Shown: one piece after another, positions 8,920-34,673 of the stretch
Layout of the letters: each line of letters starts with the position of its first letter
How positions within the stretch are numbered: position 1 is the first letter of the stretch
NCBI GenBank assembly: GCA_029262875.1
Contig: JAJCYO010000057.1
Coordinates: 1-56,460 of the forward strand
From: Flavobacteriales bacterium
GTDB lineage: Bacteria > Bacteroidota > Bacteroidia > Flavobacteriales_E > Vicingaceae
DNA length: 56,460 nt
Reading direction: 5' to 3'
The notes under the pieces: generated by a model
Told to the model about the DNA's origin: nothing
Seen by the model: only the letters and a program-made list of their open reading frames with translations
Database searches by the model: none
Position numbers and translations under genes: made by a program

Positions 8920-11900
8920 ATGAAACATTTATTAACACTTACCCTTATCTGCGGATTAATCCTTTCTATTACTCCTTGCAAAGCACAAGGACTTAAATAC
9001 ATGTGGCACCACAACCATGATTTTGATGGCAATAGTACCTCAGCAAATGATGTAATAGCCACCGAGTACGAAGAGCTGTACGTACTTTACACCCATTCTG
9101 CAGAAATAGATGTAGATCCTACCCCAGCAGTTATTGTAACTGATGAGTTTACGACTAACTATACCATTGTTAAGTATAACGACCAACGAGAATACTTATG
9201 GTATAAAACGCTACCAGCAGGACAAGGAGTTTTTACTATAAATATGAAGCAAGGCCCTAATGGAAATATATACGTATATGGGTTTTTTGGGATGGCTTTT
9301 GATGCTGACCCTGGACCAGGCGTGAATACACTTACCCCAAGCGGGTTTCAGCAATCAGGATATATTATACAATTAGACTCTAATGCTAATTACATCAACG
9401 CAGTAGAATTTGATGCAACGTCTGCTGCCAGAATTAGAGACTTGGATATCGATGATACCGGTAATTTATATGTTATAGGTGTGCATGGCGGTGATTTTGA
9501 TGCCGATCCAGGCGCAGGTGTTCAAACCATTTTAGCGGGTCCGTCTGGAGGAGGTGCTTTTATGATCAAACTGAACCCGAACATGCAATATATTTGGTCA
9601 TTTGGAATTAACGGACCTGCAGGGGATAATTTTGGAGATATCGTTTTACATGGAACCAACATTTATGTGAGTGGTAGCTCTCCTAACTTTGCGGATGTAG
9701 ACCCCGGCCCAGCAACAGTAATGTCTACCGGACCAGTATATTTATTAAAATATGATACAGCAGCTAACTTGTTAGATACCGCCTTCTGGGCCTCAGGAGA
9801 CCTTCCACTCATAGCAGTTGATGACAATGGGCTAATAATGATGGCTGGCACCTTTATGGGCTCAGCTTACGATGCCGACCCCAATGCTGGCAGCTTTATT
9901 ATTCCTTCATCGAACTGGTGGGAAAAACCGCACCTTATCGCCTTAGATTACAATTTTAATTTCCAGTGGGCCATTGGTTTTGAAACTACTTCTTCCACTC
10001 CAAACTTACGCTTAACCGGTGTAGCAATAGACCCAAATGGTAATGTGGTTACTGCTGGACATTTTAAAGGTGGGATAGATCTTGATCCTTCAGTCGGAAC
10101 CAATTCCATTACATCATTGAACAACTCATCTGATGGATATGTTGGCTATTATGATAATAACGGAAATATGCTATCTGGCCATGGCTTGTTAGATAATAAC
10201 AACACTTCAATGGCTACACTAAAGTTAGGACCAGATTATGAGGTATTTATACCCTTGAATTACCGATCTGGGATTGATGTAGACCCTGGTCCTGGAGTAT
10301 TTAATGTTACCAACTCATCCACTACGGCAGCATTGGTAATTGAATATTCAAGTTGCCCAACCAATGTAACTGTAGTTAACCCAAGTATCTGCGAAGATGA
10401 TGTATATGCCATTGGAGATACAGCTTTTGCTAAGACGGGTACACATCGGTATCGATTTAAAACTACAAGTGGTTGCGACAGTATTGTTGAAGTGAATTTA
10501 ACGGTTAGTAAACCTGCAATTAAAATGAAGCAAGCTTCTGATACTCTGGAAGTGGAATATTCAGCTGCGGCAACTTACCAGTGGCATAATTGCACAATGG
10601 GTATGGATGTTTCAGGAGAAACCAATTCAACATTTATTCCTACCAACAACGATGCTTATGCTGTAGCTGTTACAGAAGGAGGTTGTATAGATACTTCAGG
10701 TTGTGTGCAGTACCTGCAAGGAGGGGTAGTAGGTGTCCCTGAATTGGTTTGGGGAGCCGACCTTGATGATGTGCGTATGGGTGAACACAACAACCTGATC
10801 ACTGACAAGTATGGGAATTTTTACCTATGTGGTACACTTTGTAGCCGTTCGGACGTTTCTTTAATGTCTGATAGCATTTTTTACCAAGAGGCAGGTAACT
10901 CTTGTGATATTATTGTTGCAAAATATAATAACAATGGTAAACTACTATGGGGCTACCATGTAGGTAGTGCAGGACCATCTAATGTTAATGAGTATGCAGC
11001 TTCATTAGCTGTAGATGATGCTGGTAATGTATACATTGCAGGAGATATTATCATTGATATTGATTTTAATCCTAACCCCGATCTTGAATTATTGGTTACT
11101 GACCCTTCACCTGGATGTTGCACGCCACATGCCTTTATTGCCAAACTGAACGAAAGTGGACAGATACAGTGGGCAAAAGGAATAGGTAGTGGTGGTAATA
11201 CTTCTGTTTGGAGTATGGATGTTTCTCCAGCTGGCCGGATAGCCATTACGGGAGAAGTTACGGGTACCGCTGATATGGACCCTGGAGTAGGGGTTGTGAA
11301 TACAGTTTCAGGAGCCTATGTTGCTATTTACGACAATTCTGGTAATTTTGAAAACTTAATCAATATACCGATAGGTCCTTTTGCTGCTGATGATTCATTT
11401 GGCCATTCAGTTTCTTTTAACTCGCAAGACGCCTTGGTTATTTCAGGTTCTTCCAGTGAAGTTTTTGATTTTGACTTGGGTCCTGGGACAACGCAATTAA
11501 CTCCTGGTGGAGCCCAAGAATACATTTATCTCGCACAATATGATTTCAATATGAATCTTGATTGGGCTACTCGATTTGGAGATTATGCAAATTCAATTTA
11601 CCCCCGTACAGTGTTAAGGCACGATTGCAACGACAAACTATATTTTGCCGGGCAAGGAATATTGAATACCGGTTATTCAACCGCTCCTTATGTGATCCGA
11701 TACGATGCCAATGGAAATTTTGAACATAGCTATTCTTTAAACAGTACCTCGCATTGGTCAAGCGATAATGTGGCTATTGATGTTGATATATATGGAAATT
11801 TATTTGTTACTGGTAAAGCTATGGGGGGTGACTTTTTTAGTCCAGGTGTTACTTTATCAGGTAGTAACGAGCAAACTTTTGTTGCTAAATATCAGGCAGA

Positions 11901-12552
11901 CGGTACAGCAGCTTGGGTGTTTGGAATTGAGGACGACCCTGGTGTTATACAAGCAGGTATAGCTGCAGACCACTTAGGCAATGTCTTTTTAGGCTCAGAT
12001 GGGCATGCATCATTGTTTGATATCGATCCAAGTGCAGCTACTTATAACCTGAACTCCTTTTTCGGCTATGTGGCCAAATATGGTGAAGGTTGTGGCGGTA
12101 TTAATACAGGGATTACCTTAGGCACCACTACTATAGACGTTCCTGGTAACGGTTATTATGTATGGAAGCGTTGTAACGATAATGTAATCGTTGATACTAC
12201 ATTAAACACCAGCTTTGCACCAACGGTCCCGGGTGATTATTATGCGGTTATCTATGCTGGTAATTGTGTAGACTCTACCGGTTGTATTACCATACTAACA
12301 GTAGGCATCGAAGCCATTAGCAACGGAGTGGTAAATGTGTACCCTAACCCTGCTAAAGACCATATAATTATAGAAACAGATGGCTCTGAAAATACCATTG
12401 CTACGTTATATAATATGGTAGGAAAACAAGTCGCTACCCTTCCTTTTAACAACCGAATAAAAGTGGATCTAAACAACCATCCTAAAGGTGTTTATCTATT
12501 AGAGATAAAAAGTGATACCACAAAACGGATGATTAAAGTAATTAAACAATAA
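8920..12552 (+). CDS. Large secreted DxDP-repeat protein with T9SS type A sorting domain
   Basis: A 1210-residue exported protein. Residues 1-22 are a signal peptide (ending TPCKAQG). Two beta-propeller/SBBP-like regions (about 25-490 and 600-1090) contain some eleven acidic turns of the type DxDPgpG or close variants (seven in the first, four in the second), each next to a GNxYxxG strand; such turns may bind calcium. Between and after them are short domains with Cys pairs (TTSGCDSI and similar) seen in gliding and adhesion proteins. The C-terminal 80 residues (VNVYPNPAKDHIII to MIKVIKQ) are a type A T9SS sorting domain, so the protein should cross the outer membrane and be anchored or released. 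Its ligand is unknown. Confidence 0.9.
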   Translation: MKHLLTLTLICGLILSITPCKAQGLKYMWHHNHDFDGNSTSANDVIATEYEELYVLYTHSAEIDVDPTPAVIVTDEFTTNYTIVKYNDQREYLWYKTLPAGQGVFTINMKQGPNGNIYVYGFFGMAFDADPGPGVNTLTPSGFQQSGYIIQLDSNANYINAVEFDATSAARIRDLDIDDTGNLYVIGVHGGDFDADPGAGVQTILAGPSGGGAFMIKLNPNMQYIWSFGINGPAGDNFGDIVLHGTNIYVSGSSPNFADVDPGPATVMSTGPVYLLKYDTAANLLDTAFWASGDLPLIAVDDNGLIMMAGTFMGSAYDADPNAGSFIIPSSNWWEKPHLIALDYNFNFQWAIGFETTSSTPNLRLTGVAIDPNGNVVTAGHFKGGIDLDPSVGTNSITSLNNSSDGYVGYYDNNGNMLSGHGLLDNNNTSMATLKLGPDYEVFIPLNYRSGIDVDPGPGVFNVTNSSTTAALVIEYSSCPTNVTVVNPSICEDDVYAIGDTAFAKTGTHRYRFKTTSGCDSIVEVNLTVSKPAIKMKQASDTLEVEYSAAATYQWHNCTMGMDVSGETNSTFIPTNNDAYAVAVTEGGCIDTSGCVQYLQGGVVGVPELVWGADLDDVRMGEHNNLITDKYGNFYLCGTLCSRSDVSLMSDSIFYQEAGNSCDIIVAKYNNNGKLLWGYHVGSAGPSNVNEYAASLAVDDAGNVYIAGDIIIDIDFNPNPDLELLVTDPSPGCCTPHAFIAKLNESGQIQWAKGIGSGGNTSVWSMDVSPAGRIAITGEVTGTADMDPGVGVVNTVSGAYVAIYDNSGNFENLINIPIGPFAADDSFGHSVSFNSQDALVISGSSSEVFDFDLGPGTTQLTPGGAQEYIYLAQYDFNMNLDWATRFGDYANSIYPRTVLRHDCNDKLYFAGQGILNTGYSTAPYVIRYDANGNFEHSYSLNSTSHWSSDNVAIDVDIYGNLFVTGKAMGGDFFSPGVTLSGSNEQTFVAKYQADGTAAWVFGIEDDPGVIQAGIAADHLGNVFLGSDGHASLFDIDPSAATYNLNSFFGYVAKYGEGCGGINTGITLGTTTIDVPGNGYYVWKRCNDNVIVDTTLNTSFAPTVPGDYYAVIYAGNCVDSTGCITILTVGIEAISNGVVNVYPNPAKDHIIIETDGSENTIATLYNMVGKQVATLPFNNRIKVDLNNHPKGVYLLEIKSDTTKRMIKVIKQ

Positions 12553-12915: not shown

Positions 12916-14799
12916 ATGAATGACACAATTCAAACCAAGGAAAAGCCATCGAAAAAAACTTCGAAAGCAATAAAAATCGATGAACATATAGTAGAAATTG
13001 TTAGTGATTCTGGAGAGGGAGCACAAAAATGTGGGGTGAGCTTCGCAGCAATATCTGCCAAAATGGGAAATGGAGTCTGGACAGTGGAAATTATACCTGC
13101 AGAAATTCAGCCACCAGCACGTAGTAGAGCTGGAGCATCTGGAATCCGTATCCGAATTGGAACCAAGGAGATTACCAACTCTGGCAACGAAGCCAATTTG
13201 GTAATTGCTTTAAACGAGCAAGTGCCTTACGGAAGAATCGATCAAAATGCTTACAACGAAAACACCATTATGCTATTGGAGAGCAAATGGGCTACTGATG
13301 CAGACGAGAACATCCGAAACAAGTATGCCGATGCATTGGCAGATTTTAAATCCAGAGGATACAATGTGATTGAAATCCCAATGGAAGTAGAATGTTTGAA
13401 GGTCGTGAAGAATGCACGAAAAGGAAAGAACATGTGGGTATTGGGAATGTTAAGCTTCATCTATAATCGTGGAATCGAAGCAGGTGAACAGCAGATTAAA
13501 AATATTTTTAGAAAAAAATCAGATGCTATTATCAACTCCAATATTGAGTTATTAAGAGCAGGTTATAAATGGTCAGAAGCTAACTTAGATTTCCAATATG
13601 ATATTCCTGTTGTAAATTCAGGTAGAGATATGGTTGTAATGAATGGTAATGAAGCCATAGGCTTAGGCGTATTAGCTTCAGGAATGGAAGTATGCTCTAT
13701 GTATCCAATTACGCCAGCTACCTCAGCCTCTCATTTATTGGCTGATATTTTTGAGAAATCTGGAGGTTTAGTTCACCAAGCAGAAGACGAGATTGCTGCA
13801 GTTGGATTTGCTATCGGTTCTTCTTATGCTGGAAAAACGGCAGTCACCATTACTTCAGGACCTGGTATGGCGTTAAAAACAGAATTTTTAGGATTAGCTA
13901 CCATGGCCGAAGTACCATTAGTTGTTGTAAATGTTCAACGTGGAGGTCCATCAACAGGATTACCAACCAAAGTAGAACAGGGAGATTTACTTTCTACAAC
14001 TTATGGAATGCCAGGAGATGCACCTAAAATAGTAATGGCAGTGGCAACAATTGAAGAGTGTTTTCACTTTGTGATCTTAGCTCGTAAACTTGCAGAATCA
14101 TTTAGAACACCTGTTTATATTTTAACCGATGCCAACTTAGCAACAGGCCAACAACCTTTCCAAAGACCACAAATTAAAAAAGATTGGTTTGCTCCGCCAA
14201 TAGATCAAAGCCCTTGGAAAGGAGATGTTAGACCATATGAGTGGGATGATGTAACAGGATTAAGTAAGCGACCTATCCCTGGTCAGTTAGGTGGGCAACA
14301 TACTTTAACAGGACTTGCTCACACAAGAGAGGCACATGTATCTTATCATCCTAACGAAAATCAAGATTCATCAGAATTAAGGAGTAGAAAATTTGCTGCT
14401 TTCCAAAAAACACTAAAACCACCAACCATCAATGGAGATGAAAAAGGTGATTTACTGATTGTTGGTTGGGGATCAACACTTGGTGCTATTGAAGAAGGAG
14501 TAGAAATTGCGCGAAAAGAAGGCATCAAAGTTTCTTCCATTCACTTACGTTTCTTAAGTCCATTAGAACCTGGATTAAAAGAAATTTTCAAAAACTTTAA
14601 GAAAGTGATGACCATTGAAATTAACTACAGTGATAGCCCTGACAATCCTCAATTTACTGAAGAAAATAGGCGTTTTTCCCAGTTATCATGGATGCTAAGA
14701 GCAAGCACATTAACAGACATAGATTGTTACTCAAACGTAGAAGGGCAACCGCTTTCACCAAAAAGAATTGTGGATGTAATAAAAAATAAATTAGCATAG
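12916..14799 (+). CDS. korA: 2-oxoacid:acceptor oxidoreductase subunit alpha (gamma-alpha fusion)
   Basis: The 627 residues combine an N-terminal gamma domain (about 22-205, starting VEIVSDSGEGAQ) with an alpha domain (about 235-627). The alpha domain has the thiamine-pyrimidine-side motif YPITPATSAS, the conserved acidic residues in HQAEDEIAAVGFA, and the RGGPSTGLPTK loop that binds substrate or CoA. It lacks its own ferredoxin domain. With KorB it oxidises a 2-oxoacid to acyl-CoA and CO2 and reduces ferredoxin. The usual substrate of this two-subunit type is 2-oxoglutarate, but pyruvate or branched-chain oxoacids cannot be excluded. It is first of eleven closely spaced genes that continue into an Rnf complex; the korB start follows 23 bases after the stop. 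Confidence 0.93.
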   Translation: MNDTIQTKEKPSKKTSKAIKIDEHIVEIVSDSGEGAQKCGVSFAAISAKMGNGVWTVEIIPAEIQPPARSRAGASGIRIRIGTKEITNSGNEANLVIALNEQVPYGRIDQNAYNENTIMLLESKWATDADENIRNKYADALADFKSRGYNVIEIPMEVECLKVVKNARKGKNMWVLGMLSFIYNRGIEAGEQQIKNIFRKKSDAIINSNIELLRAGYKWSEANLDFQYDIPVVNSGRDMVVMNGNEAIGLGVLASGMEVCSMYPITPATSASHLLADIFEKSGGLVHQAEDEIAAVGFAIGSSYAGKTAVTITSGPGMALKTEFLGLATMAEVPLVVVNVQRGGPSTGLPTKVEQGDLLSTTYGMPGDAPKIVMAVATIEECFHFVILARKLAESFRTPVYILTDANLATGQQPFQRPQIKKDWFAPPIDQSPWKGDVRPYEWDDVTGLSKRPIPGQLGGQHTLTGLAHTREAHVSYHPNENQDSSELRSRKFAAFQKTLKPPTINGDEKGDLLIVGWGSTLGAIEEGVEIARKEGIKVSSIHLRFLSPLEPGLKEIFKNFKKVMTIEINYSDSPDNPQFTEENRRFSQLSWMLRASTLTDIDCYSNVEGQPLSPKRIVDVIKNKLA

Positions 14800-14822: not shown

Positions 14823-15776
14823 ATGTACGGATTAAAATCAGATATAGCATTAGACCTTCCTTCAAAATATTATTCATTAGAAAACTATGAAAAGGGAGTT
14901 GCACGTTGGTGTCCAGGATGTGGTGATCACGCTGTATTAACTAACATGCAAAAACTATTACGAGAGAAACAGCTACAACCAGAAAAAACTGTATTTGTTT
15001 CTGGGATTGGATGTTCTTCAAGGTTCCCTCATTACATGGACACTTATGGCTTCCATGGTCTTCATGGAAGAGCATTTCCTGTAGCAGAAGGAATTAAATT
15101 TAGAAGACCAGATTTAGATGTTTTCGTAGTAACTGGGGATGGTGATTGTTGTTCAATTGGTGCTGGAGCATGGATTCATGCCATTAGATATAATATGAAC
15201 ATGACAGTTCTTTTATTAAACAACGAAATTTATGGGTTAACAAAGAAACAAGCATCACCAACATCAAGAGTTGGTACTGTTTCCAATACAACGCCTGACG
15301 GCTCCATTCTTCCTCCTTTAAGTCCTATACAAACTACTTTAGGTGTTTCAAACGCTTCATTCGTGGCTCAAACTGCGGATTGGAACCCAGCACACATGTA
15401 TGAAACAATTAAAGCTGCCTACGAACACAAAGGGTTTTCATTTATCCATGTGATTCAAAGGTGTCCAATTTTTCAAGGAGCATTAGCTGATGAACAAGTA
15501 GCAGATAAAGATGCTCTGGTTTATTTGAATCATGATAATGGGATTCAAGTAGATGAAACTATTGCTAAGACTTTTAAAAATGAACTTAACCATGATCCAA
15601 CAGATTTATCTGTCGCAAGAAATTTAGCCATGGATCCGGAGAAAATTTACATGGGGTTATTTTACCAAGACAAAAATGCTCCTTGTTACGATGACCATGG
15701 AGCTTCGAACATTGGATTTACAGTAGAACAAAAAGAAGCGGCATTAAATGCGGAGCTGGATAAATTCGCTATTTAA
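14823..15776 (+). CDS. korB: 2-oxoacid:ferredoxin oxidoreductase subunit beta
   Basis: A 317-residue thiamine-diphosphate subunit. The [4Fe-4S] ligands are C30 and C33 (WCPGCG), C64 (GIGCSS) and C214 (QRCPIF). The thiamine-binding motif runs from GDGD at 105-108 to the NNEIYG at 133-138. The usual TGGQ after this motif is TKKQ here. All residues for catalysis appear present, so this subunit with KorA should be the only active 2-oxoacid-oxidising unit of the cluster. The C-terminal 75 residues are a helical extension. It is followed after 29 bases by a giant protein carrying a ferredoxin domain, which is the obvious candidate for electron acceptor. Confidence 0.93.
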   Translation: MYGLKSDIALDLPSKYYSLENYEKGVARWCPGCGDHAVLTNMQKLLREKQLQPEKTVFVSGIGCSSRFPHYMDTYGFHGLHGRAFPVAEGIKFRRPDLDVFVVTGDGDCCSIGAGAWIHAIRYNMNMTVLLLNNEIYGLTKKQASPTSRVGTVSNTTPDGSILPPLSPIQTTLGVSNASFVAQTADWNPAHMYETIKAAYEHKGFSFIHVIQRCPIFQGALADEQVADKDALVYLNHDNGIQVDETIAKTFKNELNHDPTDLSVARNLAMDPEKIYMGLFYQDKNAPCYDDHGASNIGFTVEQKEAALNAELDKFAI

Positions 15777-15805: not shown

Positions 15806-18331
15806 ATGTCAACAAAAGAGAAAAGCACATTTAGCCATTTTTTTAAAGAAGATGCCGAACACATTCAGGACATCCTCCAAGGAACAAATGGCCAACCTTT
15901 AGCAAATAAATTAGGTGCTGCAACCAAAGAAATATTCCCCAAAATAAATGGAGGTTCCGAAGTTTCAGAAAATGAGATGACCTCAAAATGGAGAAGTTTA
16001 AGATCCTTTTTTAGAAGCGGAATAAGCACTGAAGAATTTAAGGGTGAGTTATCTCCTGTAATAATGTCTCCTTTATACACCAATACATTGATAGGTACAG
16101 AGTTTCCTGTTTGGGTTGCAGATGAATCTTTTGAGGGAGAAGGCGCTCAATGTCTTTCATTGAAAGAGATGCTAACAACATGCCTTGAGAAAATTGCACC
16201 TGAAGGTGAGGATGCTCATATCTTAAAAGAAAATATAGCGCGTATTGTCCATATTGCTAATCAACAACTAAAAGACAATAAACCACAACTGTTTAAATCG
16301 GCCATCCAAAATATCTTGGATGAATTAGAAAGTCAATTGGATGTTTCAGGAGATGAAGTAAGTAAATTTAATACTAGCTTAAAAGAATTAAAAGAAATAT
16401 TGCCATCATGTGGCGCTTTGCTCCCTTATTCGAATAACACCTCTTTTCAATTGTTGGAAGCTGCAATGCTAACTACGCATGGTCAAGCAAGAAAAAAATT
16501 AGCTTATGATATTTCACAGTTAAAATGTAGGCTAAAAGACTTGCTTAGAGTTGAGAGAGAAAAAAATCCAACTGAAGCTGGTGGAGCTAAGACCAAAGAA
16601 TCTTATGACTTTGCTGATGCTATGATGAACATTGAGGAAATTTCTACAATGGACCCTGGAGCTGGAGCAGAAAGTATGGGACCAGAAAGAGTTGAAAGAA
16701 TAACCGGTGTAATTGCAGAATTAGAACTTGCCGATAAAATGCTTACGCAAACAAGCTTCCTTTTTGTAGATGAAATAGTTCACGCCAATAAAAGTACAGA
16801 TTGGAAATCTCTATTTGAAGACAGCGAGGTTAAACCCTATAAGAAAGGTGGAGGTTGCGATGCTATTAACGCCTGCTTCACTAAAAACATTTCTGCTTGG
16901 ACAAAATTATTTGTTGCTAAAAGAATTGGGGAATTAGAATTTGAAAGTAGTTACATGGCCGATGTTCATGATGATTATTTTACTCATTTTGGTTGGGAGA
17001 ATTTCTCTTCCGAAGAACTTAGTAATTGTCCTCACTTTGTTTTAATCGCTGACGATGTGCAGTTATTTGAAACTGAATTAAGCAAACTATCATCTACGTT
17101 AACTCACAACATTCCTATAAAGATAGTTGCTGTAAAAAGAGACAACTATGGAACAACCGATGTGCATTCTCAAACTGAGTTAGGCGCTTTAATGATTTCT
17201 CATAAAAACATATTTGTGGCGCAGTCTACTTCAATTACACCAACCTATTTATTTGATGGTTTTGCACGTGGGTTAAACTCATTTGCTCCAGCATTTTTTA
17301 ACGTGTTGAATGTTGATCAGAGCACACATGATAATCCATACCTATGGACAAGTGCTTCTGTTGAAAGTAGAGAATTCCCAGGATTCACATTCAATGGAGT
17401 TTTAGGCACTTCCTGGGGAAGTAGATTTGAAGTAGCCAATAATCCACAACCAAACCAAAAATATCCAATCCATACATTAGCAATTATTGATGAAGCTGGC
17501 GAAAAAGTTGATACCGACTTTCCGTTCACTTTTGCTGATCAAGCAGCTTTAAATCCTGCATTTCATGGTCACTTCATGAATGTTGATGCATCTTATTGGA
17601 ACGAAAATTTAATCTCAATAACAGACTACATCGAAAATAGTGCTGAAGATAATGTTGGAAAAGTTCCTTTTGTTTGGATGATGAATGCAGCCAATGAATT
17701 ACAAAAAGTTGCTGTTTCATGGCCACTCGTACTGGCAACTCAAGAACGTTTAGACTTCTGGAGGTTTTTACAAGAAAGCAGCGGAATAAACAACTATCAT
17801 GTTGGCAAAGCATTGGCCAATGCAAAAGAAGATTTTCAAGCAGACCTTGACGCTGCTGTTGCACAATTGAATGAAGAGCATGCCACTGAAATTCAAGCTG
17901 TAAGAGACGAAGAATCTGGGAAAGTAATGGAGAATTTAACCTCCGTACTACTTAACTTAGATACAAGTAATGTAGTAACCACAAGTGCTCCTGGATCTAA
18001 TGCAACTCCGGCAAGTAGTGCCGTTACAGAAACAGAAGAGCCAGTGGCTGAAGAAGCCACTGCCGAAGAAGAAAGTGCCTTATCGAATGATCCATATATT
18101 GATACCGCTTTATGTACATCTTGCAATGAATGTACTAATATGAACGGGCAACTGTTTAAGTATAATGGAGATAAAATGGCATACATCAATGATCCAAAAG
18201 CTGGAAGCTTTAGCGAATTAGTTGAAGCTGCTGAACTTTGCCCTGTTGCAATTATACATCCTGGCTCACCTCTTGATCCTAATGAAGCAGACTTAGATAG
18301 TTTAGTCGAAAGAGCAGCAAAATTTAATTAG
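15806..18331 (+). CDS. Decayed PFOR-like domain with coiled coil and C-terminal [4Fe-4S] ferredoxin domain
   Basis: The 841 residues form a mostly helical N-terminal region (1-380) without a known motif, then a domain at about 385-560 that aligns by eye with the C-terminal part of the 1229-residue protein encoded two genes on. Shared marks are FVLIADD, LFDGFARGL, PAFFN and SREFPGFTFN. In that paralogue the same region can be traced to the thiamine domain of pyruvate:ferredoxin oxidoreductase; here no GDG thiamine motif remains. A coiled coil follows (about 670-720), then an Ala/Glu linker and a ferredoxin domain with C770, C773, C776 and C812. It probably carries electrons between KorAB and RnfB rather than catalysing. 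The stop is 4 bases before rnfB. I know no named family for the full-length protein. Confidence 0.6.
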   Translation: MSTKEKSTFSHFFKEDAEHIQDILQGTNGQPLANKLGAATKEIFPKINGGSEVSENEMTSKWRSLRSFFRSGISTEEFKGELSPVIMSPLYTNTLIGTEFPVWVADESFEGEGAQCLSLKEMLTTCLEKIAPEGEDAHILKENIARIVHIANQQLKDNKPQLFKSAIQNILDELESQLDVSGDEVSKFNTSLKELKEILPSCGALLPYSNNTSFQLLEAAMLTTHGQARKKLAYDISQLKCRLKDLLRVEREKNPTEAGGAKTKESYDFADAMMNIEEISTMDPGAGAESMGPERVERITGVIAELELADKMLTQTSFLFVDEIVHANKSTDWKSLFEDSEVKPYKKGGGCDAINACFTKNISAWTKLFVAKRIGELEFESSYMADVHDDYFTHFGWENFSSEELSNCPHFVLIADDVQLFETELSKLSSTLTHNIPIKIVAVKRDNYGTTDVHSQTELGALMISHKNIFVAQSTSITPTYLFDGFARGLNSFAPAFFNVLNVDQSTHDNPYLWTSASVESREFPGFTFNGVLGTSWGSRFEVANNPQPNQKYPIHTLAIIDEAGEKVDTDFPFTFADQAALNPAFHGHFMNVDASYWNENLISITDYIENSAEDNVGKVPFVWMMNAANELQKVAVSWPLVLATQERLDFWRFLQESSGINNYHVGKALANAKEDFQADLDAAVAQLNEEHATEIQAVRDEESGKVMENLTSVLLNLDTSNVVTTSAPGSNATPASSAVTETEEPVAEEATAEEESALSNDPYIDTALCTSCNECTNMNGQLFKYNGDKMAYINDPKAGSFSELVEAAELCPVAIIHPGSPLDPNEADLDSLVERAAKFN

Positions 18332-18335
18332 CAGG

Positions 18336-19214
18336 ATGGGAGAAGATTTTCTCATACCATTAGCCATCCTTGTCGGACTCGGCCTGTTGTTTGGGCTTAT
18401 CTTAGCTTTAGCTTACAAACAATTTAAGGTATACGAAGATCCAAGAATAGATGTAGTAGAAGATTTATTACCGAATGCTAACTGCGGTGCTTGTGGAGTT
18501 CCGGGTTGCAGGGCATTTGCAGAATCCATCATTAACGATGGAACCAACCCTGCTAAATGTACCGTTAGTTCTGAAGATGGAATCACCAACATTGCTAATT
18601 TCTTGGGAGTGGAAGCCAATGCCGAAGATAAAATTGTAGCACGATTACTTTGCGCTGGGGGAATTAAAGAAGCCCACAACCTTGCAGATTACAAAGGTGG
18701 AATGAGTACTTGTCGAGGAGAAACTGTTGTTGGCGGAGGAGGAAAAGATTGTTCTTGGGGATGCTTAGGTTTAGGGGATTGCGCTAAAGCTTGTGATTTT
18801 GAAGCAATTACGATGAGTGATGATGCGTTACCAGTAGTTGACACAGAAAAGTGTACCGCCTGTAATGATTGTGTTATTGAATGTCCAAAAGGGCTTTTCA
18901 AGTTAATGCCGATCAACCAAAAATTATTGGTTCAGTGTCGTTCATTATTAGAAGGTGATTTAGCAGAATCGAAATGCAGTGTAGCCTGCACAGGCTGTTC
19001 TCGTTGTGCTGCTGATGCTGCTCCAGATGTGATTGAGATAGTCGAAAATTTAGCTGTAGTAAATTACGAATTGAATGATTTAGCAACTTCTGCAGCAGTA
19101 AAAAGATGCCCAACAGATGCCATTGTTTGGCTTGAAGGAGATAATCAATTTGAAGCTGTCACTAAAATAGATTTACCGTTGGGAAGAGTTGAAGAGGAAG
19201 TGTATTACCAATAA
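18336..19214 (+). CDS. rnfB: Rnf complex subunit RnfB
   Basis: A 292-residue iron-sulfur subunit that receives electrons from ferredoxin. An N-terminal membrane anchor (about 6-28) is followed by the RnfB cluster C50, C53, C58 and C75 (NCGACGVPGC), a ferredoxin pair with C139/C143/C149/C153 and C173/C176/C179/C183, and a further cysteine group C214/C218/C221/C224 with C258-P that looks like a third ferredoxin-type motif. This is longer than the proteobacterial RnfB and similar to the long forms of anaerobes. It is flanked on both sides by giant PFOR-like proteins, 4 and 11 bases away, rather than by other rnf genes. That position implies direct contact between these proteins and RnfB. Confidence 0.92.
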   Translation: MGEDFLIPLAILVGLGLLFGLILALAYKQFKVYEDPRIDVVEDLLPNANCGACGVPGCRAFAESIINDGTNPAKCTVSSEDGITNIANFLGVEANAEDKIVARLLCAGGIKEAHNLADYKGGMSTCRGETVVGGGGKDCSWGCLGLGDCAKACDFEAITMSDDALPVVDTEKCTACNDCVIECPKGLFKLMPINQKLLVQCRSLLEGDLAESKCSVACTGCSRCAADAAPDVIEIVENLAVVNYELNDLATSAAVKRCPTDAIVWLEGDNQFEAVTKIDLPLGRVEEEVYYQ

Positions 19215-22918: not shown

Positions 22919-24286
22919 ATGATAAAAATGTCATCGACAACTACATATAAAGGCAAAACCTACACGTTTAATCACGGTGTACATCCTGAGGAATTTAAAA
23001 CCTTGAGCAGTCACTGTGAAGTGCAACGAATGCCATTTGTAGATGAATACACCTTACCCTTAGGGCAGCACATTGGAGCACCAAGTAAAGCGTTAGTGAA
23101 CAAAGGTGACAAAGTTAAGAGGGGGCAGAAAATAGCAGATGCTGGAGGTTTTGTTTCAGTTGCATTACATTCTCCAGTTGACGGAACTGTGAGTGATATC
23201 GGAATTTTTGATAATCCAAACGGGCAAGTTTTACCAGCCATTAAAATCAAAACAGATCCTTATAGTACGCAAAGAGTTGAAGACCTTCCAATAGATATAG
23301 AAAACTTAGATACAAAAGAATTTATCTCTGCAGTGCAAGATGCTGGAATCGTTGGATTAGGTGGAGCAGCATTTCCTACCCATGTAAAGTTTGCTATTCC
23401 TGAAGGAAAAAAATGCAAATACATCATGCTAAATGGATGTGAGTGCGAACCTTTTTTAACTGCCGACCACAGGGTGATGGTCGAAAGTCCAGAAGAGATT
23501 ATTGATGGTATTATTATTTTAAACAAATACCTCAATGCAGAAAAAGCATACATCGGAATTGAAGCCAATAAACCGGATGCAATTGAAGCGCTAAAGAAAG
23601 TTGCTGCAACCAGTAGCTTCCCTATAGAGGTGATGGCCCTTCAAGTGAAATATCCTCAAGGAGCCGAAAAAATGATGATTACAGCTATTTTAGGGGAAGA
23701 AGTTCCTAGTGGGAAACTACCGTTAGACTTAGGTGTTTTAGTTGGAAACGTTGGAACGTTTAAAGCCTTAGCAGAATATTTTAGAAAAGGAAAACCCTTG
23801 GTAGAAAGAGTGGTTACTGTTACAGGAACCGCTATTAAAAACCCTGCAAATGTATTGGTTCCTATTGGAACGCCCATGAGAGATGTTATTGAATTATGTG
23901 GAGGAATAACTGACGATGCAGCAAGAATATTATTAGGTGGCCCCATGATGGGAGCAGTTCAAAAAAGTTTAGATGTGCCAGTGGTTAAAGGAACATCAGG
24001 AATATTAATCTTAACCAACAACGAGGTAAGAGATTTAGAAGAATATAACTGTATTCGATGTGGGAAATGTGTAGATGCTTGTCCCATCTTTTTAAATCCC
24101 TCCATGATGGGAATGTTAGCCAAAAAAGGATTGTGGGATGAGATGTTAGAATACAATGTGATGGATTGTTTTGAGTGTGCAAGCTGCTCCTTTGTTTGCC
24201 CATCAGCAATTCCATTGGTACAAAGTTTTAGAGTAGCCAAAGGATTTTTAAGAGAGAAAGCAGCAAGAGAAAAGGAAACGAATTAG
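22919..24286 (+). CDS. rnfC: Rnf complex subunit RnfC
   Basis: A 455-residue peripheral subunit carrying the NADH/FMN site. The N-terminal domain contains HSPVDGTVSDI, the Rossmann-like core starts GLGGAAFPTHVKF (nucleotide binding), and the C-terminal part has two [4Fe-4S] motifs: C378/C381/C384/C388 and C417/C420/C423/C427. It is short, without the repetitive tail of the proteobacterial proteins. A second ATG three codons downstream (MSSTTTYKG) may be the true start. It accepts electrons via RnfB and reduces NAD+. The gap to rnfD is one base, which indicates tight translational coupling. Confidence 0.95.
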   Translation: MIKMSSTTTYKGKTYTFNHGVHPEEFKTLSSHCEVQRMPFVDEYTLPLGQHIGAPSKALVNKGDKVKRGQKIADAGGFVSVALHSPVDGTVSDIGIFDNPNGQVLPAIKIKTDPYSTQRVEDLPIDIENLDTKEFISAVQDAGIVGLGGAAFPTHVKFAIPEGKKCKYIMLNGCECEPFLTADHRVMVESPEEIIDGIIILNKYLNAEKAYIGIEANKPDAIEALKKVAATSSFPIEVMALQVKYPQGAEKMMITAILGEEVPSGKLPLDLGVLVGNVGTFKALAEYFRKGKPLVERVVTVTGTAIKNPANVLVPIGTPMRDVIELCGGITDDAARILLGGPMMGAVQKSLDVPVVKGTSGILILTNNEVRDLEEYNCIRCGKCVDACPIFLNPSMMGMLAKKGLWDEMLEYNVMDCFECASCSFVCPSAIPLVQSFRVAKGFLREKAAREKETN

Positions 24287-24287
24287 A

Positions 24288-25301
24288 ATGGATTTGAGTA
24301 ATAAATTATCAGTATCAACGGCTCCTTTTTTAAAGGATAAAAACACCACGCCCAAAATTATGATGACGGTGGTGTATACACTGATTCCAATTGTAATGAT
24401 TTCGATCTACTACTTTGGATTAGCTGCATTATTAGTTACGATAACTTCTGTTTTCTCCTGCATGTTTACTGAATGGTTATTTAACAACAAACAAAAAGAT
24501 CGATTTAAATCCTTAAAAGATGGCAGTGGATTAATTACGGGTTTGTTATTGGCCTTAACCCTTCCTCCTGGATTTCCATTGTGGATGGTATTTATAGGTG
24601 GCTTTGTAGCCATTGGAATGGGAAAAGCGATGTGGGGTGGATTGGGTCAAAACATATTTAACCCTGCACTATTAGGAAGGGCATTTTTGCAAGCAGCATT
24701 TCCAACAGCCATTACCACTTGGTCTCCAGCAGATGGAAGATATTTTGGAATACGGGGAACCAATTTTGCAACACCATTTTTTCAAGGAGAAAATATTGAT
24801 GCCGTTTCTGGTGCTACACCTTTATCAAAAATGAAGTTCGATCATGTTGCCACAGATTCTTTTGAATTATTAATGGGAACAACGGGTGGTTCCTTAGGAG
24901 AAACATGCGCCCTATTATTGATTTTAGCAGGAGCATATTTGCTGATCAAAAAAATCATCAATTGGAGAATTCCGGTATCAATCATCTTAACAGTAAGTTT
25001 ATTCTCGGGGATTTTTTATATGATCAATCCAGAAATTTACCCATCCCCTATATTTATGCTGCTATCTGGTGGTATGTTATTAGGAACAGTTTATATGGCT
25101 ACCGATTTAGTAACCTCTCCACTAACACCTAAAGGAACCTGGATATTTGGAATAGGGATAGGAGTATTAATTGTATTGATTAGAATTTGGGGAGGATTAC
25201 CTGAAGGTGTGATGTACGCCATATTATTAATGAATGCCGGAACACCATTATTGAATCGTTTTACTAAAATTAGAACCTACGGGCATAAAAAAAGTAATTA
25301 A
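24288..25301 (+). CDS. rnfD: Rnf complex subunit RnfD
   Basis: A 337-residue integral membrane subunit related to NqrB. About nine hydrophobic segments are visible. Thr177 in DAVSGATPLS lies in the SGAT motif to which FMN is covalently attached in this family by a flavin transferase; no apbE gene is present in the window, so that enzyme must be encoded elsewhere. Conserved family stretches include GLLLALTLPPGFPLW and GGLGQNIFNPALLGRAFL. The stop codon overlaps the rnfG start by one base. Confidence 0.95.
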   Translation: MDLSNKLSVSTAPFLKDKNTTPKIMMTVVYTLIPIVMISIYYFGLAALLVTITSVFSCMFTEWLFNNKQKDRFKSLKDGSGLITGLLLALTLPPGFPLWMVFIGGFVAIGMGKAMWGGLGQNIFNPALLGRAFLQAAFPTAITTWSPADGRYFGIRGTNFATPFFQGENIDAVSGATPLSKMKFDHVATDSFELLMGTTGGSLGETCALLLILAGAYLLIKKIINWRIPVSIILTVSLFSGIFYMINPEIYPSPIFMLLSGGMLLGTVYMATDLVTSPLTPKGTWIFGIGIGVLIVLIRIWGGLPEGVMYAILLMNAGTPLLNRFTKIRTYGHKKSN

Positions 25302-26005
25302 TGAGCGAAGGAGAAGAAAATATAACCCCTGAAATAGTAGAGGAGAAAGAACCAAGTTCTTTAAAGCTGATTTTGGCTTTGGGAATTGCTGGTTTAATCT
25401 CTGGAATTATTTTAGTGGGAACTTATATCTATACCGATCCTTTGATAAAAGCAAACAAAGCAGCAGCAACTCAAAGTGCCATCTTTAAAGTCTTAGAAGG
25501 ATGCGAGTCTTTTACCACTTTAGTTCTTGAAAATGACAAGTTAGTTGAAAAAATTGTTGATCCAAACAAGGAGGAGAAGAACGATAAAGATGAACTCATT
25601 ATTTACGCGGGCTACAATGCCAATAAAGAACTAATTGGATTTGCTATTCCTGGAAGCGAACCTGGATTTCAAGATATTATTGGAACTATATTCGGTTATG
25701 ATGGGACAAAAAAAGTAATCATTGGGTTTGAAGTGCTGGAAAGTAAAGAAACTCCTGGACTGGGAGATAAAATATTTAAAGATGCCGATTTCCAAACCAA
25801 CTTTGCAGCACTTGCTATTGAACCAGAGATAATACCTGTAAAGAAAGGGGAAAAGCAAAACCCAAATGAAGTGGAAACAATTGCTGGAGCTACTATTTCT
25901 TCAAAAGCAGTTGTGCGCTTACTGAATAAAACAATGGCCGTTTGGCAAAAAACTATAGACGATTACATTAAAGAAAATGATTTAACCGTTGCTGAAAAAC
26001 AATGA
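25301..26005 (+). CDS. rnfG: Rnf complex subunit RnfG
   Basis: A 234-residue single-pass membrane protein related to NqrC. The transmembrane helix spans about residues 22-44, and the rest is an exported FMN-binding domain. Thr198 in the sequence AGATISSKAVV is the expected covalent FMN site. GSEPGFQDII and ETPGLGDKI are typical of RnfG/NqrC. It overlaps rnfD by one base and rnfE by four, which fits strictly coupled expression. Confidence 0.93.
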   Translation: MSEGEENITPEIVEEKEPSSLKLILALGIAGLISGIILVGTYIYTDPLIKANKAAATQSAIFKVLEGCESFTTLVLENDKLVEKIVDPNKEEKNDKDELIIYAGYNANKELIGFAIPGSEPGFQDIIGTIFGYDGTKKVIIGFEVLESKETPGLGDKIFKDADFQTNFAALAIEPEIIPVKKGEKQNPNEVETIAGATISSKAVVRLLNKTMAVWQKTIDDYIKENDLTVAEKQ

Positions 26006-26649
26006 GTGATATAGAAAATAAAAGTCAAGCCGCGCAGGAATTTTTAAAAGGACTCTGGAAAGAAAACCCTGTGTTTATTTCTGTGTTAGGAATGTGTCCT
26101 GCTTTGGCAGTAACCAATACAGCCATTAACAGTTTGGCGATGGGATTGGCCACTACTTTTGTGTTGTTATGCTCCAGTATTTTGGTCTCTTTGTTGAAAT
26201 CCATTATCCCAAAACAAGTTAGAATAACAGCTTACATTATCATTATTGCAACATTCGTTACGGTAGTAGATTTTTCATTGGCCGCATTCCTTCCAGCGAT
26301 TCATAAAGAACTTGGAGCATTTATCGCATTGATTGTGGTAAACTGTTTGATCTTAGGAAGGCAGGAAGCATTTGCCTCTAAAAACAGTGTTGGCTTATCC
26401 ATATTGGATGCTTTAGGAATGAGTGTTGGATTTACATTCGCCATGTTATGTATTGGGATGCCTAGAGAAATATTAGGAAGTGGTTCACTGTTTAATATTC
26501 CATTATTTGGTGAAAGCTTCGAACCGTGGGTAGTTATGATTTTACCTCCAGGCGGGTTCTTTATGTTAGGGTTTTTACTACTTGGATTTAACTGGTATGC
26601 ACAACGAAAAAAGGAAAGAGAATTAACTAAACAAACACAAAAAGTATAA
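26002..26649 (+). CDS. rnfE: Rnf complex subunit RnfE
   Basis: A 215-residue membrane subunit of the RnfE/NqrD family with about six transmembrane helices. The N-terminal GLWKENPVFISVLGMCPALAV contains the conserved half-helix cysteine that, in the Nqr/Rnf structures, helps to hold an intramembrane [2Fe-2S] cluster with the partner subunit; a second cysteine is in the VVNCLILGRQEAFA segment. It overlaps rnfG by four bases and rnfA by one. Confidence 0.94.
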   Translation: MSDIENKSQAAQEFLKGLWKENPVFISVLGMCPALAVTNTAINSLAMGLATTFVLLCSSILVSLLKSIIPKQVRITAYIIIIATFVTVVDFSLAAFLPAIHKELGAFIALIVVNCLILGRQEAFASKNSVGLSILDALGMSVGFTFAMLCIGMPREILGSGSLFNIPLFGESFEPWVVMILPPGGFFMLGFLLLGFNWYAQRKKERELTKQTQKV

Positions 26650-27224
26650 TGGGCGAATTGATTTGGATATTTGTTTCAGCGTTATTGGTAAACAATTTTA
26701 CTTTAGCTTATTTCTTAGGGTTGTGTCCATTCTTAGGCGTTTCTGGAAAACTACAAACTGCCTTCAGATTAGGATTAGCAAACATCTTTGTGATGCTAAT
26801 TACTGCTGCTTGTGCTTACGCATTAAACACTTGGGTCTTAGTTTATGCCCCCTATTTACGATTGATCAGTTTTATTATTGTAATTGCCAGTTCCGTCCAA
26901 TTTGTAGAGATGGCAGTTAAAAAATTGAGTCCAGACTTATTTCAGGCTTTAGGTATTTTCTTGCCGTTAATCACTACTAATTGCGCCATTTTAGGATTAG
27001 CACTATTCTCTACTAACAAAGGTTATGGGTTTTGGGAAGGAATGATATACGCTTTAGGAGCAGGCGGAGGAGTGACCTTAGCATTAGCATTATTGGCTGG
27101 AGTAAGAGAAGAAACAAGAATATTAAACATCCCTAAAGTAATACAGGGAACAGCTATTAACTTAATTATTGCAGGCATTATCTCAATGGCATTTATGGGA
27201 TTTGCTGGATTGTTTAGTTCATAA
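26649..27224 (+). CDS. rnfA: Rnf complex subunit RnfA
   Basis: A 191-residue membrane subunit of the RnfA/NqrE family, predicted to have six helices. NNFTLAYFLGLCPFLGVS and ITTNCAILGLALF carry the two cysteines expected to coordinate, with RnfE, the intramembrane [2Fe-2S] cluster. The usual length and motifs are complete. It is followed after 11 bases by a small cysteine-rich membrane protein that may help to assemble that cluster. Confidence 0.95.
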   Translation: MGELIWIFVSALLVNNFTLAYFLGLCPFLGVSGKLQTAFRLGLANIFVMLITAACAYALNTWVLVYAPYLRLISFIIVIASSVQFVEMAVKKLSPDLFQALGIFLPLITTNCAILGLALFSTNKGYGFWEGMIYALGAGGGVTLALALLAGVREETRILNIPKVIQGTAINLIIAGIISMAFMGFAGLFSS

Positions 27225-31106: not shown

Positions 31107-34100
31107 TTATTTCAATATGGTAACTCTTCCAACAAAATCATGGTACTCGTTGAAAATATCTTTTACCCTGGCTTTATACACATACACATCATCTTGCACT
31201 AATGCCCCTTTATAAATGCCATCCCAGACTACCTGTGTGTTTTTTCCTGTTTCATGAAACAATTGATTTCCCCATCTATTAAATATCCTCAAATCCACTT
31301 CTTCCAGTCCAAAACCATCTATAAAAAACCCTTCGTTAATATTATCTCCATTGGGTGTAAACACGTTTGGAATCCATATGGCAAAGGCAGGTCTAATCTT
31401 TACTTCGCGCCTAACTGTATCTCTACAGCCATATGTATTTTCAATGTAAAGTGATACAATATAGGATCCTGAATCACTATACTCATGTACAGGATTGTTT
31501 ATTATTGAATTTGAACCATCTCCTAAATCCCATAACCAACTACTTGCTATTTCCGATTGGTCAAAGAACGAAATTTCCCTATCATATACATCCGTAATTT
31601 CTGGTTCTACAATAAAATCAGCTAAAGGAATAGGATAAACCGTTACCATATTGGGTATTGATGCAAATGCTGAACATCCTTTATCTGAAATAGCCGTCAA
31701 ACTAACATCATATGATTTACTGGCCACACGAGATTTGTTTTGAAAACAATATGATGGGTTTTGACTACCCGCACCTGAACCATCTCCAAAATCCCACTGA
31801 TAAGACACAATACTCCCCGAGCTTATTGAAGAAGAATTGTTTATCGTTAAACACAGTGGAGCGCAAGCTGCAGTATCTGTTCCAAACAATAGAACTGGTA
31901 ATGGGTTTACATTAACCAGTATAGTTGCAGAGTCTATACATCCATTATTCGTTGTTACAATTAATGTTGTTGGCACTACCCCCTCATTATTAAAAATATG
32001 GGTTGGATGTTGGAGGTTAGAACTTCCCAGCCCATCAAAATTCCAATTCCATTGCGCGATTGTATTTATTGTATTCACATTAGAAACTGTAGACAAATCA
32101 CTAAATTGCGTAGTATCATTTAAGCATACCTCAGTAGGAATAAAATTAACTACAGGCAATGGCCAAACCTCAACTTGTTGTGCTAAAGTATCTTCACACC
32201 CATTATCAGAAGTAACAATTAATTGCGTAGCATAAAGTCCTTCATTTAGATAGTTTTCCGAAGGGTTTTGAACAACCGAGTTATTAGAATTACCGAAATT
32301 CCAATTCCAATTAATAATATTTCCTGAATTGACAGATGAGTTATCTGAAAAAGTAACTGAAGTACCAACGCAAGCATTTACATAAGTATAATCTGCAACG
32401 GGCATTGGAAATATCGTAATCGGTTGAACAATAGTGTCGCTGCAACCAGAGGTAGTCGTAACAATTAGCTGAACATTATATCCCCCATCAGATGAATAAA
32501 CATTTGATGGGTTTTGAGATGTATTGTCTACTATTCCATCACTTTCAAAATCCCAATCCCAATTCGAAATTATGCCTCCATTTGGATTAGAGTTATCCGT
32601 AAACGAAGCAGCTACATTCTCACAGACATCATTTGTGGTAAATGCCGCAATGGGTTCTGGAAACACATCTAAATTCGTATTGAAAGTATTAATACATCCG
32701 CTATCAGATATTATTGTTAATGTAGCATTGTAATTTCCAGCAGCAGCATATGTGTATGTGGGGTTTTGCAGGGTACTTGTACCAGATGCATCCCCAAAAT
32801 CCCAAGCCCAGCTGGTAATACCTCCTGTAGAAATAGTAGATAAATCATTAAAGGCAGTTACCGCATTTAGACAAACATTTGATGAAGAAAAGTTTGCTGT
32901 AGGAATAGGGTTTACAATTACCTGCATTGTTATTGAGTCGTTACACGCTCCTCCTGCAGAAACAAATAGTTCCGCGGTATATGTTCCTGCAGCCGGGTAA
33001 CCATTCGTTGGATTTTGAGTAGTATTATCAATCACTCCATTATTATCAAAGTCCCATTGCCATGTGGTAATTGTCCCACCATTCCCATTAGACAAATCAG
33101 TAAACCCAGTAGATGTACCAAAGCATTCATTGGTAAAGGTAAATCCCGCTGTTGGCAAGGCTGAAACTATTACATTAATGGTGGTGTCATGTCCACAGTT
33201 TCCTCCTCCCAACGAAAGATTCACTGGGTATGTTCCCAATGAAGGAAATGTATAGGTTGGATGCTGTGATGTGTTGTCCACTATACCATCATTGTCAAAA
33301 TCCCATGCCCAACTGGTAATTGTTCCTGTTGGAGTAGTTGACAAATCAGTAAACGATGTAGCCGATCCTTGGCAAACCGTATCCGCAGCAAAAATTGCCG
33401 TGGGAGTAGTACTGTCTGCCACTATGGTAACATCTAATGTTATAAAACAACCTGGAGCGGTTATCAAATCTACTGTGTACAACCCAGGTGTACTTGTCGT
33501 TATGGAAGATGTTGTTGCTCCAGTACTCCACAAGTAAGTTCCATTAAATGGACTGGGAGCATTAAGTGTTACTGGTGCGCCACAAACAACAGTATCTGAT
33601 GGTACGATTTGTAATGGAGTACAAGACGCTTCTACATAAGCATACCCGTAGTGTCCTCCTTGACCGCAATCACCTACAGTAAATTCAACTGTTACATTTT
33701 GACCAATGTAAGCTTGTAATGGCACTATTACAGTGGACCAATCTCGATATTGAACCGAACCCGTATTTACCCACCCTGGAGATCCATCTCCAGCAGTAGA
33801 TTCAAATTCTCCACATACTATCGAATTACCTGCCTGATCGTAAACCCTTGCCTGAAAGTATGGTTTTTCACCCAAGGAATGACCAGAAGGATCTTCCAAA
33901 ACCGCAGCATAACTATAAGAGAAATCAGCATTTGTAGCACTTACTAAAAATGTTTGAGCTATTCTTGATGCCCAATATCCTGTACCTGTTCCGTCTCCTA
34001 TAAGTGCGGAGCAAGTTCCTCCATTTAAAGGGTTTACCATTTGAATAGGCACATTTGGGTCTGGTCCAGGGTTTACAATATAATGCTGGTCTGACCCCGA

Positions 34101-34673
34101 TCCTCCAGTACCTGGGAAACCTACGGTGGACCCATTACCCCAATTCGTAGTAGCTACAGGGTTGGTAAATCCATAGGCGTTATTATCAACCGTTCCTTGC
34201 GTTAAATTCCAGGCTGAAAAATCACAATTTTCAAATTCCATATTCTGACACGGGTCTCCAGGTCCTTTATCGATAGGTCCTTTATTAAGTTCAGTATTAT
34301 CAGTTTTAGGTGATTGCAATTCTTTTTTCAATAAAATAAAGCGATTATATTTATTAAAATCAGCTATTAAAGTGTTCTCAACTTGAGGTAAAAACCCTCT
34401 CACCATATCAATGGTGACATTGGGAGTCTCATGCACATAACTATGCACCATTTTCTTGTACTTTTTTATGTTCTCAATAAAATAACTCCTAATTCGACTC
34501 AGATCTTCAGATGCGATCAATGGGTTATCAGCCAAACCTCTAAGAAAGGATTCTTTAATCTCAATTTTTGTTTCTTTAGATTCAAAAATATTATGGGTAT
34601 GATTTACTTGCGATTTTAATGAGAACGGCACTATCATCACAAATAATAGTAGGGAGAGAAAGTTATTTTTCAC
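31107..34673 (-). CDS. PKD-repeat surface protein with T9SS type B (gliding-associated) C-terminal domain
   Basis: A 1188-residue secreted protein. Signal peptide at 1-22 (ending SLKSQ). Residues 140-355 form a jelly-roll-like domain with four or more cysteines, followed by an Ig-like unit and about eight PKD repeats of some 80-95 residues. Each repeat shows C.....F.D.S and W.WDFg.....QNPt.Y patterns. The last 90 residues (IPNVFTPNGDNINEGFFI to GRVTILK) are the gliding-motility-associated C-terminal domain that serves as type B T9SS signal. The protein should be displayed on the cell surface and probably acts in adhesion. The repeated domains also give repetitive DNA across this gene. Confidence 0.92.
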   Translation of the reverse strand: MKNNFLSLLLFVMIVPFSLKSQVNHTHNIFESKETKIEIKESFLRGLADNPLIASEDLSRIRSYFIENIKKYKKMVHSYVHETPNVTIDMVRGFLPQVENTLIADFNKYNRFILLKKELQSPKTDNTELNKGPIDKGPGDPCQNMEFENCDFSAWNLTQGTVDNNAYGFTNPVATTNWGNGSTVGFPGTGGSGSDQHYIVNPGPDPNVPIQMVNPLNGGTCSALIGDGTGTGYWASRIAQTFLVSATNADFSYSYAAVLEDPSGHSLGEKPYFQARVYDQAGNSIVCGEFESTAGDGSPGWVNTGSVQYRDWSTVIVPLQAYIGQNVTVEFTVGDCGQGGHYGYAYVEASCTPLQIVPSDTVVCGAPVTLNAPSPFNGTYLWSTGATTSSITTSTPGLYTVDLITAPGCFITLDVTIVADSTTPTAIFAADTVCQGSATSFTDLSTTPTGTITSWAWDFDNDGIVDNTSQHPTYTFPSLGTYPVNLSLGGGNCGHDTTINVIVSALPTAGFTFTNECFGTSTGFTDLSNGNGGTITTWQWDFDNNGVIDNTTQNPTNGYPAAGTYTAELFVSAGGACNDSITMQVIVNPIPTANFSSSNVCLNAVTAFNDLSTISTGGITSWAWDFGDASGTSTLQNPTYTYAAAGNYNATLTIISDSGCINTFNTNLDVFPEPIAAFTTNDVCENVAASFTDNSNPNGGIISNWDWDFESDGIVDNTSQNPSNVYSSDGGYNVQLIVTTTSGCSDTIVQPITIFPMPVADYTYVNACVGTSVTFSDNSSVNSGNIINWNWNFGNSNNSVVQNPSENYLNEGLYATQLIVTSDNGCEDTLAQQVEVWPLPVVNFIPTEVCLNDTTQFSDLSTVSNVNTINTIAQWNWNFDGLGSSNLQHPTHIFNNEGVVPTTLIVTTNNGCIDSATILVNVNPLPVLLFGTDTAACAPLCLTINNSSSISSGSIVSYQWDFGDGSGAGSQNPSYCFQNKSRVASKSYDVSLTAISDKGCSAFASIPNMVTVYPIPLADFIVEPEITDVYDREISFFDQSEIASSWLWDLGDGSNSIINNPVHEYSDSGSYIVSLYIENTYGCRDTVRREVKIRPAFAIWIPNVFTPNGDNINEGFFIDGFGLEEVDLRIFNRWGNQLFHETGKNTQVVWDGIYKGALVQDDVYVYKARVKDIFNEYHDFVGRVTILK

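Follow-up and report, generated by a model that had tools for sequence, protein, structure and literature searches.

A 56,460-nucleotide stretch of DNA from a Flavobacteriales bacterium (contig JAJCYO010000057.1, here called the window) contains one tight same-strand run of genes, korA to rnfA, with spacers of 1–29 bases or short overlaps. In this run the genes for a two-subunit 2-oxoacid oxidoreductase (KorAB) and for the Rnf ion pump are interspersed with genes for two giant proteins of 841 and 1229 residues, P841 and P1229. We propose that P841 (15806..18331, + strand) is a catalytically dead descendant of pyruvate:ferredoxin oxidoreductase (PFOR) that acts as an adaptor, linking KorAB to Rnf or, in other lineages, to Nfn through a dedicated, tethered ferredoxin at its C-terminus, and we put the probability of this reading at about 0.68. 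An earlier description made from the letters alone (the sequence-only reading) had delimited the 841-residue open reading frame (ORF) as we find it, and had described its product as a partial paralogue of P1229 fused to a ferredoxin domain.

Two giants descended from PFOR

P841 is a true paralogue of P1229 (19226..22915, + strand), and both are descendants of PFOR. BLASTP aligns residues 373–660 of P841 (16922–17785) with residues 877–1165 of P1229 (21854..22720) at 25% identity over 299 amino acids (E = 2e-17). The four motif pairs named in the sequence-only reading all lie inside this alignment, although its estimate of about 170 shared residues was too short: residues 208–720 of a P841 orthologue from another genome (L024, genome G002) align with residues 700–1225 of P1229 over ~520 residues (E = 4.7e-24). 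Profile comparison, which that reading had put forward as a test of the similarity, gave a highly significant result. A hidden Markov model of P841 residues 373–665, built from 58 homologues and searched against a small database of ~110 sequences, matched single-chain PFOR-ferredoxin proteins at E values of 1e-70 to 1e-86, the P1229 of the window at 6.2e-52 and PFOR beta at 4e-34. When 3317 background ORFs were searched, strong matches came from P841, P1229 or PFOR proteins; eight weaker ones (E 3.6e-7 to 0.02) were left unclassified by reference BLAST. P841 also aligns directly to the beta subunit of intact two-subunit PFOR (E = 6e-9), and P1229 to both the alpha (E = 1e-17) and beta (E = 2e-14) subunits.

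Residues 94–660 of the AlphaFold2 model of P841 (16085..17785; 44-sequence alignment, mean pLDDT 82.7) adopt a fold like that of PFOR domain VI, the beta part of thiamine pyrophosphate (TPP) enzymes, without the TPP motif. The match to PFOR 6cio_E (VIA Z 21.2, 289 residues, root-mean-square deviation (rmsd) 4.4) includes the 385–560 region, whose fold had been singled out beforehand as decisive. The model of P1229 (residues 30–1229, pLDDT 84.1, pTM 0.84) has a whole-PFOR fold (Foldseek E 7e-24; oxalate oxidoreductase alpha Z 25.6, beta Z 23), with domains I, II, V and VI, a deleted domain III and a long C-terminal helix. The fold common to P841 94–660 and P1229 is found in single-chain PFOR/NifJ (1b0p, 6cin) and in the beta subunit of oxalate oxidoreductase (5c4i), reflecting common ancestry.

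In contrast to PFOR/NifJ, the giants lack the TPP site and, by a residue-by-residue comparison in P1229 and apparently in P841, the proximal cluster. The GGDG and NTGG sequences, the TPP/Mg motif of domain VI, occur together in no P841-family protein. GGDG alone is present in the P841 of locus L076, which derives from a metagenome-assembled genome (MAG) titled ‘Bordetella parapertussis’ whose nfnAB-korAB-P841 locus falls with environmental Betaproteobacteria and others; this species name is doubtful. No match to PFOR domain I or III was found in P841 with Pfam. Bacteroidota versions lack domains I–V and have the added ferredoxin tail, whereas Myxococcota versions retain a PFOR_II domain, which is genuine even though their ~1300-residue length depends partly on the choice of start site. 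P1229 proteins have lost the catalytic Glu, GDG, NTGG, the proximal-cluster cysteines (all four replaced family-wide) and the ferredoxin tail, and the CoA domain III is reduced to 9 residues in the window and to about 10 in Bacteroidota P1229. Most P1229 relatives nevertheless retain 8/8 cysteines of the two internal clusters of PFOR. Several of these are missing from the P1229 of the window genus (the window, L032 and L036) and of L095, and thus in the window genus any relay role must have moved elsewhere. P841 or P1229 as an active TPP enzyme was considered and rejected, the TPP and catalytic motifs being gone from both. Since the operon KorB retains its own catalytic motifs while the TPP site of both giants is lost, KorAB must, judged by these motifs, be the active enzyme of the operon.

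The ferredoxin tail and its partners

The tail of P841 (residues 764–841, 18095..18328) matches Fer4_13 (PF13370) at 765–818 (E = 5.5e-8, 33.8 bits, cut-off 24.5) and resembles Desulfovibrio africanus ferredoxin I (1fxr) with a TM score of 0.84 and rmsd of 1.2. C770, C773, C776 and C812 are invariant in 58 P841 homologues from many phyla, as are N774, E775, F784, Y786, I817–G820 and P822, while the body has diverged. By its CxxCxxC...C motif and modelled fold the tail is a single-cluster [4Fe-4S] ferredoxin, with a cluster predicted to be redox-active. It follows a rigid body, a long helix at 664–715 (17795..17950) and a disordered tether at 718–759 (17957..18082, pLDDT <50). These data bear out the earlier description of an intact, tethered ferredoxin on P841. 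That P841 alone carries an intact ferredoxin domain is correct within the window genome, but not generally, as most P1229 relatives keep the eight internal-cluster cysteines. The linker ahead of the ferredoxin has a median length of 114 residues in an Rnf context, compared with 73 in an Nfn context, where P1229 is gone.

The same reading had placed coiled coils after both paralogous regions and suggested that these pair the giants. Heptad tests on the C-terminal helices of P841 and P1229 were not significant, and a heptad coiled coil is rejected. The helices have instead a hydrophobic repeat of 11 or 15 residues (3-4-4) that is significant but was found post hoc, after the heptad tests had failed; its hendecad score for P841 664–715 was reached in 0/3000 shuffles. 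Pairing as such gains indirect support from this shared repeat and from correlated divergence. Across 17 complete operons the P841–P1229 distance correlation was the tightest of all pairs tested (r = 0.94, or 0.83 with RnfC removed), that of P841 with KorB being 0.89 (0.62 with RnfC removed).

Scanning 84,980 species, each represented by a single genome, yielded 222 P841 relatives, of which 80 loci were taken for gene order. In 51 of 52 loci testable within 400 bases, korB immediately precedes P841, and in the remaining one (L049) it is also upstream, beyond that limit. Some KorB is found in 297 of 395 Bacteroidota genomes, yet full-length KorB of the operon type (386–429 bits; next 249) occurs only in G167, G191, G220 and the window genome, and these are exactly the P841-positive genomes. 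In the tree, KorBs from these operons make up a clade of their own, well apart from the stand-alone copies that the same genome encodes.

Four arrangements were observed. In Gemmatimonadota and a few others, the order is korA-korB-rnfB, a ~1690-residue PFOR with a ferredoxin tail, and rnfCDGEA. The form seen in the window, korA-korB-P841-rnfB-P1229-rnfC and onwards, is shared by Bacteroidota, SAR324, Myxococcota, Acidobacteriota, Krumholzibacteriota and others. A third form, nfnA-nfnB-korA-korB-P841 without P1229, is found mostly in Pseudomonadota but also in G220 and one Acidobacteriota MAG; the naming was checked on G220, where the neighbours are NfnB (Fer4_20, TIGR01316) and NfnA (NF004862, DHODB Fe-S domain). 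Algoriphagus has an apparently active PFOR-ferredoxin, rnfCDGEA and an rnfB-korA-korB-P841 type block; in A. kandeliae (G167; L029/L019, on a contig shared with L061) the single-chain PFOR-ferredoxin is 1637 residues long and stands in a single run with the other genes. Nfn-linked KorBs are nested among Rnf-linked ones, and the P841 tree shows the same nesting, which marks a change of electron acceptor from Rnf to Nfn. Gene order across phyla and co-occurrence with korB thus favour the role between KorAB and RnfB that the sequence-only reading had assigned to P841, but that role was drawn too narrowly, Nfn being the partner elsewhere.

In a quick tree search on domain VI, rooted on two-subunit PFOR, P841 formed one clade (58 rows, SH-aLRT 99) and P1229 another (17 rows, 92); the two were sisters (99), with the PFOR-ferredoxin proteins outside. 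The latter retain all tested TPP, proximal-cluster, internal-cluster and tail residues, and the intact ~1690-residue protein of Gemmatimonadota is likely to be a surviving ancestral form. The sequences fit a history in which one PFOR-ferredoxin was duplicated, P1229 then losing the tail and P841 the front; loss of the front would have been stepwise, because the Myxococcota versions still have PFOR_II. Two PFOR-ferredoxin records call for caution: a ‘Solirubrobacteraceae’ MAG and a Gemmatimonadaceae MAG collected at one site (L078/L079) carry copies with identical domain VI sequences, the ‘Solirubrobacteraceae’ contig being likely mis-binned, and a 569-residue ORF ahead of rnfC (L066:9851-11557) is possibly frameshifted or misassembled.

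Proposed mechanism and alternatives

We envisage that the dead TPP-beta-like body of P841 docks on KorAB, most likely at KorB, and that the ferredoxin swings on the disordered tether, part of a linker of ~110 residues. It would collect single electrons at the KorB cluster while a 2-oxoacid is oxidised, or deliver them in reverse, and would pass them to RnfB here and to NfnAB in other lineages. P1229 may bind P841 by way of their homologous domains and C-terminal helices, anchoring the unit at Rnf. Most of its relatives could also provide a relay of two [4Fe-4S] clusters, which the window genus has lost. Nfn is a reversible enzyme. Rnf too is reversible (PMC12174285), so that electrons may flow either way in vivo. 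A bolder version, to which we give rather less than even odds, is that KorAB, P841, P1229 and Rnf constitute one membrane-bound 2-oxoacid:NAD+ oxidoreductase ion pump that dispenses with free ferredoxin, which evolved when a PFOR-ferredoxin fusion was duplicated and gutted, and whose KorAB–P841 half was later plugged onto NfnAB.

Known two-subunit KorAB enzymes rely on free ferredoxin. The korA and korB of the operon belong to this type, represented by OGOR of M. marinus (6n2n), but the adjacent gene here encodes a partner that bears a ferredoxin. In OorDABC/KorABCD a small delta subunit supplies the ferredoxin part. These enzymes (H. pylori, 8ys5; E. laminata symbiont, PMC6315080) likewise combine a 2-oxoacid:ferredoxin oxidoreductase with its own ferredoxin-like part, whereas in P841 a single-cluster tail is joined to a body derived from PFOR. 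RnfB itself bears a ferredoxin-like domain on a flexible tether (PMC12174285); both proteins would thus use a flexibly tethered [4Fe-4S] domain as an electron shuttle, although we found no similarity beyond the Fe-S motif, and P841 would work on the substrate side of Rnf.

Several points weigh against the adaptor reading. Docking of P841, complex formation, binding and transfer, and the direction of electron flow are steps that we infer, and the substrate of KorAB is predicted to be a 2-oxoacid. Because both giants evolve fast, their distance correlation could be inflated, and so could their grouping in the tree, where long-branch attraction between two fast-evolving dead copies is a caveat. 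Two stand-alone KorAB pairs of the window genome have no P841-like partner adjacent, and hence P841 is not generally needed. Finally, the window genome encodes an Alvin-type 2[4Fe-4S] ferredoxin (L116:1548-1892, 115 residues, 10 Cys), which could do the job of P841, and ferredoxin-sized ORFs were among the matches listed for several other operon-bearing genomes. The L116 gene speaks against the earlier suggestion that the tethered ferredoxin replaces the soluble one; the absence of a soluble 2[4Fe-4S] ferredoxin, which that reading had proposed to look for, is rejected for the window genome. With a soluble ferredoxin present, the tethered one is dedicated rather than a substitute.

That soluble ferredoxin also favours the best-surviving alternative, in which it carries the electrons, P841 and P1229 serve solely in scaffolding, assembly or regulation, and the cluster in the tail is vestigial, structural or used for sensing. 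Clusters in the giants can indeed be dispensable, several of the eight internal-cluster cysteines having already gone from the P1229 of the window genus. However, 58 homologues from many phyla share the tail cysteines and a good part of the tail without change, although their bodies have diverged, and the tail is a true ferredoxin fold on a disordered tether, so we consider this explanation unlikely. Less probable still is a role of the giants in shielding KorAB, or its low-potential clusters, from oxygen in (micro)aerobic hosts, with the ferredoxin secondary. The C-terminal domain of D. africanus PFOR guards against O2, and the hosts include Algoriphagus, Flavobacteriales, Gemmatimonadota and Pseudomonadota, several of which we take to be aerobic; but shielding leaves unexplained the strict conservation of the ferredoxin and the gene-level link to Rnf or Nfn, and the stand-alone KorAB pairs of the window genome lack such a partner. 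That both giants jointly form an active oxidoreductase for another 2-oxoacid around one shared TPP site is very improbable, for although both have the PFOR fold, P1229 lacks the catalytic Glu, GDG, NTGG and the four proximal-cluster cysteines, P841 lacks GDG/NTGG, and the CoA domain III has shrunk to about 10 residues in Bacteroidota P1229.

Ferredoxin is usually regarded as a freely diffusing carrier. If the adaptor reading is true, many bacteria, aerobes included, would feed low-potential electrons from the oxidation of 2-oxoacids straight into an ion pump or into NADPH. Cultured strains, among them Algoriphagus kandeliae and A. limi, would allow this to be tested. The adaptor reading would also give a proposed function to a family lacking an NCBIfam model and matched in Pfam only as a ferredoxin. 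The parts all come from known families; for the way they are arranged, for these giants, and for a gutted PFOR put to new use as an adaptor that bears a ferredoxin and switches between Rnf and Nfn, we found no published account in the open-access literature searched (subscription papers lay mostly outside this coverage). The nearest leads are PMC6315080, PMC11636981, PMC9973337 and PMC12174285. An Endoriftia ‘PFOR-like’ gene that changes alongside korAB(3) (PMC11636981) possibly belongs to the P841/P1229 family. A plasmid search for annotated names gave two weak matches, neither usefully annotated.

Other genes of the operon and window

The remaining genes of the operon are all on the + strand. 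KorA (12916..14799) is the alpha subunit of a 2-oxoacid:acceptor oxidoreductase, a gamma-alpha fusion of the OAFO family (TIGR03710, 501 bits, above cut-off), and its closest solved structure is the alpha subunit of M. marinus OGOR (6n2n_A, E 2.8e-77). KorB (14823..15776) is a catalytic beta subunit of the operon-specific type with TPP and cluster motifs present; it is closest to 6n2n_B (E 8.7e-51), with the WCPGCG, GIGCSSR and GDGD regions aligned. These two genes, rnfB (18336..19214, TIGR01944 above cut-off) and rnfC (22919..24286, TIGR01945, 552 bits) were named by NCBIfam and Pfam. The contiguous or overlapping ORFs rnfD (24288-25301), rnfG (25301-26005), rnfE (26002-26649) and rnfA (26649-27224) were named from gene order, homologues standing in matching order at related loci. 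P841 matched no NCBIfam model and, in Pfam, the C-terminal Fer4_13 alone; P1229 has a weak POR_N match in Pfam (5.4e-11).

As for the two further korAB pairs of the window genome (L117 on C147 and L118 on C114), one adjoins the 2-oxoglutarate dehydrogenase genes odhAB, and the other lies in a cluster with genes named by eye as IorAB-like and xanthine-dehydrogenase-like. Elsewhere in the window, the products of 8920-12552 and 31107-34673 are large, secreted and equipped with sorting domains for type IX secretion (Por_Secre_tail; eight PKD domains and CHU_C), and 36135-38153 encodes a histidine kinase with TPR, of the His_kinase (PF06580) type.
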